The position numbers and the translations under genes are program-made. 64,000 nt of DNA from Candidatus Poseidoniales archaeon (GTDB taxonomy: Archaea > Thermoplasmatota > Poseidoniia > Poseidoniales > Thalassarchaeaceae), in NCBI GenBank assembly GCA_012960975.1, contig DUAE01000001.1, positions 101,544-165,543 on the forward strand. The letters run 5' to 3'. The notes under the pieces were generated by a model. The model did not search any database. It saw only the letters and a list, made by a program, of their open reading frames with translations, and had not been told where the DNA came from. This document shows, in pieces, positions 23,499-36,147 of this stretch; the first letter of the stretch is position 1, and each line of letters starts with the position of its first letter.

Positions 23499-24413
23499 TC
23501 AAAGTGCAGCGAGTGCTATCTTTAGTGCTGGAACTGCATCTTCCCAATTTGCGACGATGCCATAATCTGCAACTCCGAAAATTGGAGCATCAGGATCTTT
23601 ATTGATTGCTACAATGAATTTTGAAGAGCGCATTCCAGCTAGATGCTGAATCGCACCAGATATTCCAACGGCGATGTAAAGAGAAGGCGTAACCGTTTTT
23701 CCGGTTTGCCCGACTTGCATGCTGTGAGGCATACTCCATTCATCGACTACTGCTCGACTTGCGCCGACTGCAGCTCCAATTATGTCTGCAACTTCTTCTA
23801 GGTGTCTGAAGTTCTCGATTGAACCTATTCCGCGACCTCCGGAAATGATGATGTCCGCTTCTGCTACATCGAGGCGCTCACTTGCTTTCGCAATCGCTTC
23901 CATTACTGCAATTGTGACATCTGCACTCTGATCCACCACGTTAACTGGAGCGCTTGCCCCTCCTTCAGCTGCATCGAATGCATTCGGGCGGAGAGTGATT
24001 ACACAATCTCCTGTAACAGTTGATGTTTCGACCGCTTTGCCGGAATAAATTGGTCGAGTAATTGCAATGCCATCTGCTAAATCGGTCGCGTCCTGGACTA
24101 TTGGAATGCCGCGCTTAGCAGCGATTCGTGCAGCGACTTCGCGACCGATTGGACTTGCAGATGCAAGAATAACTCCATTGCATACCGAGTTGATTGCTGA
24201 GGCCCATGCGCCACCATCGAATGTTGAGAAACAATCTCCAACGACCGAGATAACCTTCTCTACACCTGCGATAGTTGCTGCTTCGGCTGCTCCGATGCCA
24301 CCCGGGCAAATGACAGTAGAGCCGTTGCCGAGAGAAGACGCTGCGCCTACGAGTTGAGCTGTGGTTGGGTGAAGCGAATCACCTGCTGATTCTGCTATAA
24401 TTGTGAATGTCAT
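23499..24413 (-). CDS. etfA: Electron transfer flavoprotein subunit alpha
   Basis: 304 residues. The C-terminal FAD-binding domain is clear: DIIISGGRGIGSIENF, GASRAVVDEWSMPHSMQVGQTGKTV, YIAVGISGAIQHLAGM and IVAINKDPDAPIF. With EtfB it collects electrons from acyl-CoA dehydrogenases, two of which are encoded nearby (25.8 and 32.6 kb). AAGGAGGAG precedes the ATG. etfB lies 13 bases upstream on the same strand. An ETF:quinone oxidoreductase is not in the window. Confidence 0.96.
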   Translation of the reverse strand: MTFTIIAESAGDSLHPTTAQLVGAASSLGNGSTVICPGGIGAAEAATIAGVEKVISVVGDCFSTFDGGAWASAINSVCNGVILASASPIGREVAARIAAKRGIPIVQDATDLADGIAITRPIYSGKAVETSTVTGDCVITLRPNAFDAAEGGASAPVNVVDQSADVTIAVMEAIAKASERLDVAEADIIISGGRGIGSIENFRHLEEVADIIGAAVGASRAVVDEWSMPHSMQVGQTGKTVTPSLYIAVGISGAIQHLAGMRSSKFIVAINKDPDAPIFGVADYGIVANWEDAVPALKIALAAL

Positions 24414-24426
24414 ACGTTTCTCCTCC

Positions 24427-25188
24427 TTAAATTACGTTTGCCTCATCTCGAAGTTTCCCGACGACGACCGAAACTGACTCCGCTCCCTCGAACTTCTGTC
24501 CTGCTGCCTTCTGGGTCGGCGGGGTGTGACCCGAAATTGATACTGATGCAGTGCCGAGATCAACGCCTAAATCCGCGGCGCTGATAACTTCGATTTGCTT
24601 CTTCTTTGCCATCATGATACCACGAACATTTGGTCGGCGCATCTCAGTGGTTCCTTTATCGAAAGCGAAAATGCAAGGTGCCGTAACGGCGATGCGCTCG
24701 CTACCAGATGAACTTGGGCGCATTGCTGAGAAACCATCGCCATCTGCTGTAACTTCAGAAACCAAAGTGACGCAAGCCGCGTCCATTAATTCAGCAACGC
24801 CTGGTCCAGTTGAACCAGCGTTCGTATCGGAAGCTTGTTTACCACAGAATACAACATCTGCACCGATGTTCTGAACAGCGGCTGCAAGAAGAGATTGAAC
24901 CTGAGTCGAGTCGAGTGCGGAAAGATCAGCGACATCGATGCGGACAAGATTGTCTGCACCGACAGCAGCCGCGTCGGTCAGCATCCGATTACATCGGTCT
25001 GGGCCCGCGGTAACCACGGTGATAGTGCCGTCGACAGCAGCAGAAAGTTGTAATGCAGACTCGAGAGCGTATTCATCATAAGGGCTCATTGACCACTTTG
25101 AGACAGCGTTTTCATCGACCTTTCCATCGGTGACAGTAATCTTCGCAGTAGTGTCTGGGACTTGTTTCAATAATACGGCGATATTCAT
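24427..25188 (-). CDS. etfB: Electron transfer flavoprotein subunit beta
   Basis: 253 residues, normal for EtfB. Features are MNIAVLLKQVPDT at the start, WSMSPYDEYALESALQL, DVVFCGKQASDTNAGSTGPGVAELM (AMP/nucleotide region), and RRPNVRGIMMAKKKQIEVI, the recognition loop that contacts partner dehydrogenases. It is first in the etfBA operon, and its 5' side faces a decayed surface-protein remnant on the other strand. Confidence 0.96.
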   Translation of the reverse strand: MNIAVLLKQVPDTTAKITVTDGKVDENAVSKWSMSPYDEYALESALQLSAAVDGTITVVTAGPDRCNRMLTDAAAVGADNLVRIDVADLSALDSTQVQSLLAAAVQNIGADVVFCGKQASDTNAGSTGPGVAELMDAACVTLVSEVTADGDGFSAMRPSSSGSERIAVTAPCIFAFDKGTTEMRRPNVRGIMMAKKKQIEVISAADLGVDLGTASVSISGHTPPTQKAAGQKFEGAESVSVVVGKLRDEANVI

Positions 25189-30183: not shown

Positions 30184-31743
30184 ATGGCAGAGGTTGGAAT
30201 TGACGATATCGCGATTCATTTTCCGCGATTATATTTCGATATGAAAGATTTCGCAGAATTCCGTGGAGCGGATTTTGGTAAATTAAACAAAGGTCTCGGA
30301 CTTGCTGCAATGGCGATTCCTGATGTTCATGAAGATACTGCGACGATGGGTGCGAATGCATGTGCTCGCTTGATTGACAGAAACAACCTCAATCCGAAAA
30401 AAATCGGTCGCATTTATTTGGGGACGGAATCAGCTCTCGATGGTGCGAAACCTACTGCAACTTACATCATGGATATGCTTGAGCAAAAATACGAGCCGAA
30501 GTTCGGTAAGGATTGCTTCCGTAACTGCGATGTTGTTGATTTAACCTTCGCATGTATCGGCGCAGTCGATGCAATGCACAATACCTTAGATTGGGCTGCT
30601 CGCGGTGGCGAGGAGCAAGACCGAATTGGAATCGTTGTTTTTGCAGATAATGCAAAGTATGATCTCGGCTCATCTGGAGAATATACACAAGGAGCCGGTG
30701 GTGGAGCGATTCTCATCCGTCATAATCCTCGATTAATTGAGATTCCAGATAATTGGGGTGTCTCTACTATGCCTGTGCATGATTTCTTCAAACCTCGAAG
30801 AGAAGTCGACATGAAAACCGTGGTCACAAATGTTCTGGATTTAGCAGAAGAAACTGGTGAGAAACTAAAAGTGGGTTTAGTTGATAGAATTCTAAATATT
30901 TTACCAACTTCGAGTAAAAAAGACAACATCATGTTCGAATCTGAAACTTTGAGTATTCACAAAGACACCCCGATTTTCGATGGGCAATTTTCAAATCGTT
31001 GTTATTCAGAATCAGTAAAATCCGCTTTCATTAATTTTCGTGCTGAAGCCATCAGAACTGGGCGTTATGACCCAGAAAATGACGAAATTTTGACAAATCA
31101 ATGGAAGCGAATCATTGTTCACCTTCCATATGCTTTCCAAGGCAAGAGAATGTTCCCAGATTTGTTCCGTCACGACCGCCGACATCTTCCAATGTGGGAT
31201 GATTTTGTTTCCGAGTTTGGTGACGAACCATTTTTCGAGGATTTTGCAGACACTCCTGAAGGTTACGAACAATTTCAAAAAGCCAATGATGGATATCGTA
31301 GATTGATTTCAAAAACTCCACAATTCAAAGAATTTGTCGAAGCACGTATCGAGAAAACCCAACGCGCTTCGAGCTTAATCGGAAACCAATATACTGGCTC
31401 AATTTTCCTTGCTCTGATGTCAACCATGGAATCAGATTTCGCAGATGACGAAACAATGATAGGAAAGCGTGTCGGTCTTTGTGGATACGGTTCTGGAGCA
31501 AAAGCCAAGGTTTTCGAAGGAATTGTACAACCAGAATGGAAAGAAATCGCAACGCGATTCAAATTATTCGATCGACTCTCACACCGTACACCAATCGACA
31601 AGGAAATTTACGAGAGGCTACATCGAGGTTCACAGAAGGAATCAATCGTTGCGCCGAGCGCCGAGTTTGCACTAATCGAAATTGGTGGTGTTGGCAAACT
31701 CGAAGGTCATCGTCACTATGCTTGGGTCCCAAAATCTGCATGA
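30184..31743 (+). CDS. Hydroxymethylglutaryl-CoA synthase
   Basis: 519 residues. The catalytic cysteine is C124 in VDLTFACIGAVDAMHNTLDW. Other thiolase-fold marks are IYLGTESALDGAKPTATYI, the AGGGAILI region, HLPYAFQGKRMFPDLF with the catalytic histidine, and LCGYGSGAKAKVFEG at the end. It condenses acetyl-CoA and acetoacetyl-CoA in the mevalonate pathway to archaeal isoprenoid lipids. At 519 residues it is much longer than typical archaeal enzymes (about 350) and closer in length to eukaryotic and some bacterial forms. ATG 30184 follows GAGAGTGGTCAT, without a strong SD. Confidence 0.93.
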   Translation: MAEVGIDDIAIHFPRLYFDMKDFAEFRGADFGKLNKGLGLAAMAIPDVHEDTATMGANACARLIDRNNLNPKKIGRIYLGTESALDGAKPTATYIMDMLEQKYEPKFGKDCFRNCDVVDLTFACIGAVDAMHNTLDWAARGGEEQDRIGIVVFADNAKYDLGSSGEYTQGAGGGAILIRHNPRLIEIPDNWGVSTMPVHDFFKPRREVDMKTVVTNVLDLAEETGEKLKVGLVDRILNILPTSSKKDNIMFESETLSIHKDTPIFDGQFSNRCYSESVKSAFINFRAEAIRTGRYDPENDEILTNQWKRIIVHLPYAFQGKRMFPDLFRHDRRHLPMWDDFVSEFGDEPFFEDFADTPEGYEQFQKANDGYRRLISKTPQFKEFVEARIEKTQRASSLIGNQYTGSIFLALMSTMESDFADDETMIGKRVGLCGYGSGAKAKVFEGIVQPEWKEIATRFKLFDRLSHRTPIDKEIYERLHRGSQKESIVAPSAEFALIEIGGVGKLEGHRHYAWVPKSA

Positions 31744-32621: not shown

Positions 32622-33794
32622 TTATGGCGAAATTGATCGGCTGATTACTATTCGTTGAACTTCTTGGGTTCCTTCGTAAATTTGAGTAATTTTCGCATCG
32701 CGGAAGAACCTCTCAACTGGAAAATCCGTCGTATACCCATATCCACCAAGGATTTGGACCGCTCGTTCAGCTACCCACATTGCGGTATCCCCCGCGAATA
32801 ATTTCGCCATACTCGCTTCCATCGAATGTCGTGGTGCACCTTGTTCGTAATGTCGTTGTTTAGCCCATGCTGCTTTGTAGACCATGTGACGAGCTGCCTC
32901 GGTTTGCGTAGCCATGTCAGCGAGGTAATTACCTATGCTTTGGTGAAGGGCAATCGGCTTACCAAAAGCCTGTCTTTCGTGTGCATAATTAAGTGCGGAC
33001 TCATATGCACCCTGGGCAATTCCTAGTGCTTGAGCAGCGATTCCAATCCGAGAATTATCTAAAGCATTCATCGCTATTGGGAAGCCTTTTCCTACTTCCT
33101 TCAAGACATTTCCAACAGGAACTTTGCAATTATCTAGCAGTAGAACACAGGTATCTGAAGAACGTATTCCAAGTTTATCTTCCTTCTTTCCTACATTAAA
33201 TCCTTCCATACTCGATTCAACGATAAAAGCAGTAGTTCCTCCGTGCTTTTTGACACCATAATCAGGGTGATCTACATCCTTTGCGAATAGAACAAAAATT
33301 CCAGCGCTCTGTCCGTTAGTCACCCACATTTTTTCTCCATTCAAGATATAATGTAGACCATCATCGCTGAGTTTCGCTCGACAGCTAAGTGCTGCCGCAT
33401 CGGTACCAGCACCTGCCTCAGAAAGTGAATAGGCGCCAATTTCTCCTGCTGCTAATCGTGGTAGGTAGCGCTGCTTCTGGTCGTTATTTCCATGTAGAGC
33501 TATGGTCTTTGAACAAAGCCCGACATGAACGCAGAACATCACGGCAAAAGAGGGATCTACTCGTGAAAGTTCTTCGACGATTATCGCCTCTGAAATATCA
33601 TCAACTGGATTGCCATTGTATTCTTCAGGAATTGTTACGCCTTGTAAGCCGTATTCACAAAAAGCCTGCCATTCATCGAGTGGTGGCCGTTGCTCTCTAT
33701 CTCTCTCAAGGCATGTAGGCGCGAGAATTTCCTCAGCAAAATCTCGAACCATCTCGCGAATCATGCTTTGTTCTTCTGTTTCTTGAAAATCCAT
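32622..33794 (-). CDS. Acyl-CoA dehydrogenase (short/medium-chain type)
   Basis: 390 residues. ACAD motifs: YSLSEAGAGTDAAALSC (flavin/substrate), LNGEKMWVTNG, RSSDTCVLLLDNCKVPVGNVL, RIGIAAQALGIAQGAYE, and the C-terminal QILGGYGYTTDFPVERFFRDAKITQIYEGTQEVQRIVI with the catalytic glutamate in YEGT. It oxidises a saturated acyl-CoA to the enoyl-CoA and reduces ETF. Distinct from the GCDH-like paralogue at 25.8 kb. Convergent with the RsuA-like gene, 13 bases between stops. Confidence 0.93.
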   Translation of the reverse strand: MDFQETEEQSMIREMVRDFAEEILAPTCLERDREQRPPLDEWQAFCEYGLQGVTIPEEYNGNPVDDISEAIIVEELSRVDPSFAVMFCVHVGLCSKTIALHGNNDQKQRYLPRLAAGEIGAYSLSEAGAGTDAAALSCRAKLSDDGLHYILNGEKMWVTNGQSAGIFVLFAKDVDHPDYGVKKHGGTTAFIVESSMEGFNVGKKEDKLGIRSSDTCVLLLDNCKVPVGNVLKEVGKGFPIAMNALDNSRIGIAAQALGIAQGAYESALNYAHERQAFGKPIALHQSIGNYLADMATQTEAARHMVYKAAWAKQRHYEQGAPRHSMEASMAKLFAGDTAMWVAERAVQILGGYGYTTDFPVERFFRDAKITQIYEGTQEVQRIVISRSISP

Positions 33795-33915
33795 GCTGTT
33801 CCCTGATTATGCCGAATAGGTAGGCGTTGTTAATCTCTTGTAACGGCAATGATTGCTAAGAATTATCATCGAATAGTTCAAATGAGGCTGGTGATGCCGC
33901 CGTGTCTGAATTAAC

Positions 33916-34413
33916 ATGGCTGATGGGGATTATTCGGAATTTGCGATTGCACATGGGCGCCGATATACTCTCGAACACCTTTGGTTACAGGTCCTTGATG
34001 AGAAGAAATCTAATTCTCAAGTCAAGATCGGAGTTAGCGAATTTATCCCTGCTGAATACGGCGAAATTCACCGAGTCGTATTGACTAGACCTGAAGATGA
34101 TGAAGAATTCAAGACCGAACAAACAGAAGGTGTCCAAGATGATGATGAACCCGCTCACATGGCGAGTGGAGATGAGGTTGGAGTAGATGATCTGTTGATT
34201 ACTCTCATGACCCCTTTAGAACGTCTGTTAATTAATGCTCCATTTGCTTGTAAAATCATCGATTTGAATGGAGACATTGAAGATAATGCTGATCTGGTAA
34301 ACGATGAAGCATATGGTGATGGCTGGTGCGTAATCGTCCAGCCATTCGATTTCGATGAAGAACAATACCTAACTCAAGAAGAATACATCGAATATCTAAA
34401 CGAACTCGAGTGA
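33916..34413 (+). CDS. GcvH-like protein without the lipoyl-lysine
   Basis: 165 residues. The GcvH fold is recognisable: YTLEHLWLQ (YxxEHxW), QVKIGVSEFIPAEYGEI (vGITdyaqxxLGdi), APFACKIIDLN (aPvsGeivevN), ADLVNDEAYGDGWCVIVQP (PeLVNxxPyGxGWl). At the position of the lipoylated lysine (ESVKA in GcvH) there is L101 in a TPLERLL context. An acidic insert of ~25 residues (about 60-88) separates the halves. It therefore cannot carry lipoate at the usual place. A GcvT-like gene lies 28 kb away, not adjacent. Function unknown; perhaps a structural or regulatory paralogue. Confidence 0.72.
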   Translation: MADGDYSEFAIAHGRRYTLEHLWLQVLDEKKSNSQVKIGVSEFIPAEYGEIHRVVLTRPEDDEEFKTEQTEGVQDDDEPAHMASGDEVGVDDLLITLMTPLERLLINAPFACKIIDLNGDIEDNADLVNDEAYGDGWCVIVQPFDFDEEQYLTQEEYIEYLNELE

Positions 34414-34444: not shown

Positions 34445-35671
34445 TCAAGGCCAGACTAACACTGGCCAGGATTCGAAATCATCTTTTTGCCAATCAATAT
34501 TTTCGAGCCAATCCAAGACTTCTGATTCTTCAGCTAAATCTAGCTCGATTTGCTTTCGGTGTAGCCAGCCTTTTAATCGACCTAGTTTCCTACTCGGCTC
34601 GAGCCCAGTAACCTGTGCCAACTTATTCCCATCAACTATTGGGGAGTTTCCCGCTTGTAGTTTTGGAAGATTCGATAATCTAGAGCGAATCTTTTCAGCA
34701 TTGTGGTAGTGAAGAAGTGCAGATTGAAAATTTTCAGGCAATGCTGCACGGAATCTTCGAAGTTCTGTTAAATCTGTACTCGGTATTTTTGATTTATTAT
34801 TGTGGAGGAAAGTGATTAATCTCATTTGGTCTTTAGAGAGTTTCAATGATTTTCTGAGGGAAGCAGAAACTTCGTCGCCAGATCTTGAGTCATTTGAGCA
34901 GATTTTTGCAAGTGCGGTAATCTCATCTCCCAAAATATTCTGAATTTGGCTTGATTCAATATCAGATAATATCACATTGAGGACACCTAAAGAATCCATC
35001 AAGGATACGATTTCATCTCTATTTGGTTTGGATAAAATTTGTAATAATTCACTACCTATTCTTTCGCGAGAAACCTTGTCTAGCATTTTTAGGTTGGATG
35101 AAATTGCTTTGGTAAGTTCAGAATTCATTTGACGGGTGCCATGCTTTTCTGCATCAAGAAAACGAAACGCTCTCATGATTCTCAATCCATCTTCTCCTAA
35201 TCGATCTGATGCATTGCCAACAGTGCGTAAAATTCCCGCTTCTAAATCAGCTGCACCGTTGAATAAATCAATTAATTTCCCTTCAGAATCAATTGCCATA
35301 GCGTTAATTGTAAAATCCCGTCGAGACAAATCTCCTTCAATACTGTCGCCGAATTCAACATTATCAGGCCGTCGTCCATCACCATAACTTCCCTCACTTC
35401 GAAGGGTGGTTACTTCCCAAGTCTGTTCACCTGTGTCTAATCTGACCATTATAGTACCAAATTCTTCACCTACGGCTATTGATCTAGGAAATATTTTCTT
35501 TACTTCTTCAGGTGTCAAATCTGTAGCGATATCCAAATCGGTCTTCGGTGAATCGATTAATGCATCACGAACCCAACCTCCGACTATCCAGGCGCACCCA
35601 ACCTGCCGTAATCTCTCCAAAACGGTAAAATCGTCCGAACTGAGTTTACCCAAGTCGACCTCCATGACCAT
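34445..35671 (-). CDS. CCA tRNA nucleotidyltransferase, class II (bacterial type)
   Basis: About 408 residues from ATG 35671 (MVMEVDLGK); ATG 35713 would add 14 and leave only 26 bases to the divergent gene. Class II head motifs: IVGGWVRDALIDSPKTDLDIATD with the two catalytic aspartates, EVTTLRSEG, DGRRPDNVEFG, DLSRRDFTINAMA, and the template motif EDGLRIMRAFRF. This is the bacterial/eukaryal class; archaea normally use a class I enzyme. All tRNA genes in the window encode CCA, so the enzyme would repair ends rather than build them. Poly(A) polymerase is the main alternative. Confidence 0.88.
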   Translation of the reverse strand: MVMEVDLGKLSSDDFTVLERLRQVGCAWIVGGWVRDALIDSPKTDLDIATDLTPEEVKKIFPRSIAVGEEFGTIMVRLDTGEQTWEVTTLRSEGSYGDGRRPDNVEFGDSIEGDLSRRDFTINAMAIDSEGKLIDLFNGAADLEAGILRTVGNASDRLGEDGLRIMRAFRFLDAEKHGTRQMNSELTKAISSNLKMLDKVSRERIGSELLQILSKPNRDEIVSLMDSLGVLNVILSDIESSQIQNILGDEITALAKICSNDSRSGDEVSASLRKSLKLSKDQMRLITFLHNNKSKIPSTDLTELRRFRAALPENFQSALLHYHNAEKIRSRLSNLPKLQAGNSPIVDGNKLAQVTGLEPSRKLGRLKGWLHRKQIELDLAEESEVLDWLENIDWQKDDFESWPVLVWP

Positions 35672-35739
35672 TCCACTCACCGATTCGCAATCATACCTTC
35701 GGGCATCATACATATGAGTAAATCACTCTTCGGTGGCAT

Positions 35740-36147
35740 ATGAAGGTCGAATTGGTCCCCCTCGAGTTACTTCGGCCGCATGAAGAAATTATAATAAAAA
35801 AAGTCAACCAACTCGAAAAAATGACTCATCGATGGAATGCATATACCAAACCCCTTCTGCTCGATCGAAAAACTGGAACAATTCTCGATGGGCATCATAG
35901 ATATGAGGTCGCACAGAGATTGAAGTTGAAGTGCGTACCTTGTGTGATGATTGATTATCTCAATGATGATTCAATCGAATTAGAAATTTGGCCAAATTGT
36001 GGTCGTGAAACTATAACGAAGCAAGATGTAATCGATTCTGCTTTGAGCGGAGAATTATTCTCGCCAAAAACCAGCCGTCATCGTTTGTCTGACCATCTAC
36101 CTCCAATCGCAATTTCACTATTTCGCTTACGCGAGCCAGCGGTCTGA
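35740..36147 (+). CDS. Short SerK-like serine kinase (ParB/Srx fold)
   Basis: 135 residues. The ParB-like core has PLELLRPHEEI, KPLLLDRKTGTILDGHHRYEVAQRL (DGHHR at 50-54) and PCVMIDYLNDD. Near the end, SGELFSPKTSRHRL matches the conserved GExxSPKTTRH signature of the archaeal SerK family, ADP-dependent kinases that convert free serine to O-phosphoserine. Known SerK proteins are about 240 residues, so roughly 100 middle residues are absent here. The retained DGHHR and SPKTSRH motifs suggest it still binds nucleotide. Not a plasmid-partition ParB. Confidence 0.75.
   Translation: MKVELVPLELLRPHEEIIIKKVNQLEKMTHRWNAYTKPLLLDRKTGTILDGHHRYEVAQRLKLKCVPCVMIDYLNDDSIELEIWPNCGRETITKQDVIDSALSGELFSPKTSRHRLSDHLPPIAISLFRLREPAV

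Follow-up and report, generated by a model that had tools for sequence, protein, structure and literature searches.

A GcvH-like protein without the lipoyl lysine, divergently paired with an acyl-CoA dehydrogenase across the Poseidoniales

Introduction

What does a protein with the fold of the glycine cleavage H protein (GcvH) do when the lysine that should carry lipoate is missing? The question is raised by an open reading frame in Candidatus Poseidoniales (Marine Group II), an order of archaea that are abundant in the ocean and have no cultured isolates (PMC6336850). The ORF, here called the H-like gene, lies at 33916..34413 on the plus strand of a 64,000-nucleotide stretch of DNA (the window) from the family Candidatus Thalassarchaeaceae (MGIIb); its start codon is ATG and its product has 165 aa. 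A first-pass annotation made from the letters of the window had described the product as GcvH-like, with leucine at the lysine position, and had proposed either a degenerated paralogue or a new, lipoate-free role.

Results

The GcvH fold is kept and the lipoyl site is lost

The H-like protein matches the Pfam GCV_H profile with an E-value of 5.8e-12 (46 bits against a cut-off of 22.2), and the same domain was found in 31/31 members of its family. Its score against the NCBIfam gcvH equivalog TIGR00527 is 45.5 bits, far below the cut-off of 115.85. Comparison of the family with 14 true GcvH of the group gave a probability of 99.8% (hhalign), and at the level of profiles the family is homologous to GcvH (PF01597/TIGR00527). 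An AlphaFold model of the protein (mean pLDDT 68; low at residues 1-8 and 61-81, and below 50 in the latter) has the H protein of T. thermophilus as its top match in the PDB (1onl; E 1.5e-7, TM 0.81 by target length), and every one of the first 22 matches is either an H protein or the GcvH-like 5a35. In this model a hairpin of residues 93-98 and 103-107 takes the place of the lipoyl hairpin. Invariant residues across 31 diverse members are E8, F9, R15, Y17, H21, W23, G39, G49, L56, N118, E122, Y133, G136, W137 and Y157. Both the Pfam match and the structural match bear out the first call of a GcvH-like ORF, whose coordinates were right.

HMMER alignment to 1onl and hhalign alignment to the 14 true GcvH agree in placing LMTPLERLLINAP of the H-like protein onto VESVKSVSEIYAP without a gap, so that L101 occupies the lipoyl-lysine site, as had been claimed. 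None of 70 aligned orthologues has a lysine there, and so the lipoyl lysine of the ESVK hairpin is missing; the ten commonest residues are E, D, Y, N, S, F, L, H, G and Q. The nearest lysine is found at position +2, where the 70 sequences have K in 30, R in 25, T in 9, V in 3, S in 2 and A in 1, and [DE][KR] directly follows the site in many members. A search of the same alignment revealed no conserved lysine column (the best reaches 51/70) and no invariant Lys or Cys column. An alternative alignment that puts a conserved lysine at the site, which the annotation had named as the case against its own reading, is ruled out by hhalign, HMMER and the columns of the orthologues, and the lack of the lysine in relatives is complete (70/70).

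The pocket of H proteins includes Glu14 (of HEW) and Asp67 in pea numbering. Their equivalents in the window protein are L22 and L105. Across the 70 orthologues the first position is L, V, I or M and the second is L, A, S, T, V, N, P, R or I, never Glu or Asp at either. We infer from these alignments that the protein would not be lipoylatable at the usual place.

Residues 58-86 (codons at 34087..34173, plus strand) form an acidic linker that is disordered in the model. The acidic insert of about 25 residues seen in the first pass is thus present; it is not a defining trait, since relatives keep it (22-36 aa) only in the window's family, whereas a 3-aa turn stands in its place in the other family of the order. 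It is best read as a family-level elaboration and not as the functional core.

The H-like gene is an old paralogue under strong purifying selection

Orthologues of the H-like gene are present in 95 of 98 Poseidoniales genomes, in 19 genera and in both families, the second being presumably Poseidoniaceae (MGIIa); this count is of orthologues proper, the raw count of 97/98 matches including true GcvH. Genomes without the gene (G002, G024 and G056) also lack the orthologue of the dehydrogenase described below, a shared absence that could be one assembly gap because the two genes are adjacent. Between close pairs, dN/dS is 0.01-0.08 (16 pairs with estimable dS). The gene is under strong purifying selection, which rules out a pseudogene. 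A separate gcvH-grade match was found in 94/98 genomes of the order, and those of the proteins that were read keep ESVK. The genome of the window likewise encodes a normal gcvH, the second copy for which the annotation had advised a search, and a GcvP, both elsewhere and apart from the H-like gene.

In a tree of 111 rows, the H-like proteins all fall in a single clade (100/100), whose stem measures 1.73 changes per site and which excludes every true GcvH sampled; the order's own true GcvH form a separate clade (99/95). The paralogue is thus no younger than the order; with so long a stem, its source GcvH cannot be named. Outside the order, no score in a 390-genome sample of the phylum approached the family level. 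The sister order within the class yielded only lysine-bearing GcvH and no H-like gene, and the lysine is present in the GcvH matches read from there and from other families of the phylum. On the strength of this phylum sample and these lysine-bearing proteins, a wider H-like family was rejected. The best loci from 84,980 species genomes are titled as marine or uncultured euryarchaea or related archaea, bar one odd title. A contig titled 'Nitrospiraceae bacterium UBA2166' (L272) has the H-like gene and the divergent dehydrogenase and is probably a mis-titled or mis-binned archaeal contig.

The gene stands back to back with an acyl-CoA dehydrogenase

Head to head with the H-like gene lies a gene for a 390-aa acyl-CoA dehydrogenase of the short-chain type (32622..33794, minus strand; best PDB match 4l1f). 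The H-like gene is divergent from one such dehydrogenase in 147 of the 147 loci with both genes, across 114 distinct spacers and both families; these loci are the ones with room on the proper side, and some genomes are counted twice through two collections. The description of the H-like gene as 'encoded alone' is therefore correct as to the lack of an operon partner and wrong as to this divergent pairing. Other immediate neighbours of the pair differ between the two families.

Full-length copies of the dehydrogenase across the order are 72-96% identical to that of the window. In the sister order the dehydrogenase (72-76% identity) has other neighbours and no H-like gene accompanies it, so the basic chemistry can do without the H-like protein. 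Most simply, the H-like gene would be a newcomer at the dehydrogenase, the alternative being its loss in the sister order. Genome G019 has two copies of the partner dehydrogenase (C23:236-1399 and C26:43167-44330, 81% and 79% identical to the window's); the former lies at the start of its contig, where its partner is only partly readable.

The spacer between the two genes is 121 bp long in the window (33795..33915) and 83-144 bp across loci. Two TATA-like elements lie in it: GAATAGTTCAAA, some 45 bp ahead of the H-like ATG, and TTGTTAA, some 38 bp from the start of the dehydrogenase gene. Of the 95 spacers from the window's family, 67 have GAATNRTTNAAR at 42-50 bp before the start of the H-like gene, where shuffling predicts 0.05, and 65 have TTGTTAA at 35-40 bp from that of the dehydrogenase (0.8 expected). 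Matching places in the other family show CATAT in 11/19 spacers (2.8 expected) and TTAAY in 13/19 (5 expected). The motifs were chosen by eye from the same spacers, so these counts are descriptive and not an independent test; the fixed distances are the stronger point. To judge by their sequence, the elements resemble two archaeal core promoters placed back to back.

Co-evolution of the two proteins was assessed by mirror-tree analysis. The partial r was 0.49 for the H-like protein and the dehydrogenase versus 0.44 for a control gene, the CCA-adding enzyme, with a third value of 0.42; no specific signal was found.

The wider neighbourhood

Electron transfer flavoprotein (ETF) subunits, a possible electron acceptor of the dehydrogenase, are encoded at 23499..25188 on the minus strand. 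In five sampled genomes of the window's family the distance from the ETF genes to the pair is about 5-8 kb, against tens of kb in the other family. In several genomes of the window's family, some 5-8 kb likewise separate the pair from the segment 23499-26979, which joins the ETF subunits to a second acyl-CoA dehydrogenase paralogue. All 14 genomes tested have ETF, whether or not they have the H-like gene, which rules out the idea that the H-like protein replaces ETF.

On the other side of the H-like gene, 34445-36147 encodes a CCA-adding enzyme (minus strand) and a ParB-N-like small protein (plus strand), again divergent and kept in both families in different surroundings. Conservation of back-to-back promoters may thus be common here. 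An HMG-CoA synthase of 519 aa (30184-31743; Pfam HMG_CoA_synt_N/C), longer than typical archaeal enzymes, adjoins the pair only in the window's family. Upstream genes once taken for a thiolase and a DUF35 protein are a W/Y-type class-I tRNA synthetase and a DUF5611 protein.

Discussion

We tentatively favour, at somewhat less than even confidence, a lipoate-free pseudo-H protein that would serve as a putative accessory or regulatory partner of the dehydrogenase. This reading is preferred because of the missing lysine in all 70 orthologues, the lost pocket, the low dN/dS (0.01-0.08), the adjacency in 147/147 loci, the separate gcvH and GcvP and, in the window's family, the ETF near the pair. 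Counted against it are the mirror-tree result, the possible assembly gap, the second divergent pair and the dehydrogenase that stands alone in the sister order. In outline, the protein descends from an old GcvH copy that the ancestor of the Poseidoniales already had; it has kept the fold and lost the lipoyl lysine and the pocket residues, and its gene stands back to back with the short-chain acyl-CoA dehydrogenase, a position that it has retained. Both genes are probably co-transcribed from the divergent promoter, to judge from the elements in the spacer. The protein, small and acidic, may then assist or regulate the dehydrogenase or its electron-transfer step, presumably through protein contact and with no role as a swinging-arm carrier. 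A more ambitious version, which we regard as rather doubtful, makes the former lipoyl-carrier fold a dedicated partner subunit of the acyl-CoA dehydrogenase, free of cofactor: a pseudo-carrier by which short-chain acyl-CoA oxidation is controlled or supported throughout the order. As for the new, lipoate-free role first proposed, order-wide conservation, the 0/70 lysine count and selection support it at the sequence level.

The main rival holds that the protein is a lipoate-free GcvH paralogue whose function is unrelated to the dehydrogenase, the pair being held together in compact genomes only by a shared divergent promoter. Two elements resembling core promoters, at fixed distances from both starts, would make separation costly, and the other divergent pair nearby is likewise conserved. 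The absence of a specific co-evolution signal fits this rival too, as do the genes downstream in the other family, which are housekeeping ones (OPRTase-like, Dph2, Cdc6, S6e and aIF2-gamma, recognised by eye). Separate promoters could evolve, however, and the junction is unbroken in 147 loci while other neighbours have been reshuffled; we consider the explanation a serious one and still rather unlikely.

Other accounts would tie the protein to lipoyl metabolism or keep it as a carrier. A pseudo-H regulator could compete with GcvH for GcvP or GcvT, for dihydrolipoyl dehydrogenase or for lipoate-attachment enzymes, in keeping with an overall fold that in the model is that of GcvH and with a true GcvH, a GcvP and one protein of the LplA/LipB/biotin-ligase family in the same genome. 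Yet among the loci read, none of the conserved neighbours was recognised as a glycine-cleavage gene, and the hairpin tip and pocket that those partners read are not kept, which makes such a regulator improbable. Still less probable is a carrier modified or ligand-bound elsewhere, for instance at the +2 lysine: the [DE][KR] after the site speaks for it, but lysine is found at +2 in only 30/70, Arg, Thr, Val, Ser or Ala taking its place in the others, and the alignment has no invariant Lys or Cys column. A functionless gcvH duplicate in decay would account for the lost lysine and the long stem branch; an open frame with conserved motifs in 95/98 genomes and a dN/dS of 0.01-0.08 make it hardly credible. 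The term 'degenerated paralogue', in the sense of decay, is contradicted by the same order-wide conservation and selection, and by an absence of the lysine that is uniform (0/70).

With GcvH the H-like protein shares the fold, the motif order R-x-Y..H-x-W, the hairpin, NPxLVNxxxYxxGW and a C-terminal EYxxxL. It differs in lacking the lipoyl lysine and the pocket Glu and Asp (HEW has become HLW), in its N-terminal EF-x-[IV] signature, in the acidic linker of one family, in a gene that does not lie with gcv genes and in its score under the curated gcvH cut-off. It scores only 23.1 bits, against a cut-off of 144, with TIGR03077 (not_gcvH), a model for GcvH-like proteins other than GcvH.

GcvH relatives recruited elsewhere are already known; here the fold is that of GcvH, yet the protein is not GcvH. 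Simiate/Abitram may also lack the lipoyl lysine. This parallel is only a lead, drawn from its description as a eukaryote-only GcvH relative (FAM206A), probably descended from GcvH and absent from bacteria and archaea (PMC3859600), and as an actin-binding protein (PMC3986562). LbpA of the sHdr sulfur-oxidation system is likewise a GcvH-like protein recruited to another pathway; it keeps the lysine in 95/95 aligned sequences and sits with hdr-like genes (PMC6067878). The H-like protein, in contrast, has no conserved lysine, and its gene is not beside hdr-like genes. GcvH-L of SirTM operons (PDB 5a35; structural match E 3.8e-4) is another GcvH-like protein outside glycine cleavage, reportedly lipoylated and ADP-ribosylated and encoded in a macrodomain-sirtuin operon. 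The H-like protein differs by its missing lipoyl lysine, and no macrodomain-sirtuin neighbourhood was recognised here. A search of the open-licence literature found no description of a lysine-less GcvH family in archaea, or of one tied to an acyl-CoA dehydrogenase.

A near-universal core protein of the Poseidoniales, which domain searches label 'glycine cleavage H protein', is almost certainly not one, and counting it as GcvH misleads a reconstruction. Should it indeed serve the dehydrogenase, it would give the prokaryotes a clear example of a prosthetic-group carrier that has become a pseudo-carrier, in a small soluble pair open to expression and testing. One sister-order genome (L170, G100:C3) encodes a second GcvH-like protein of its own, of an 'ESGKW' type on an exceptionally long branch (1.88), in which the lysine is kept.
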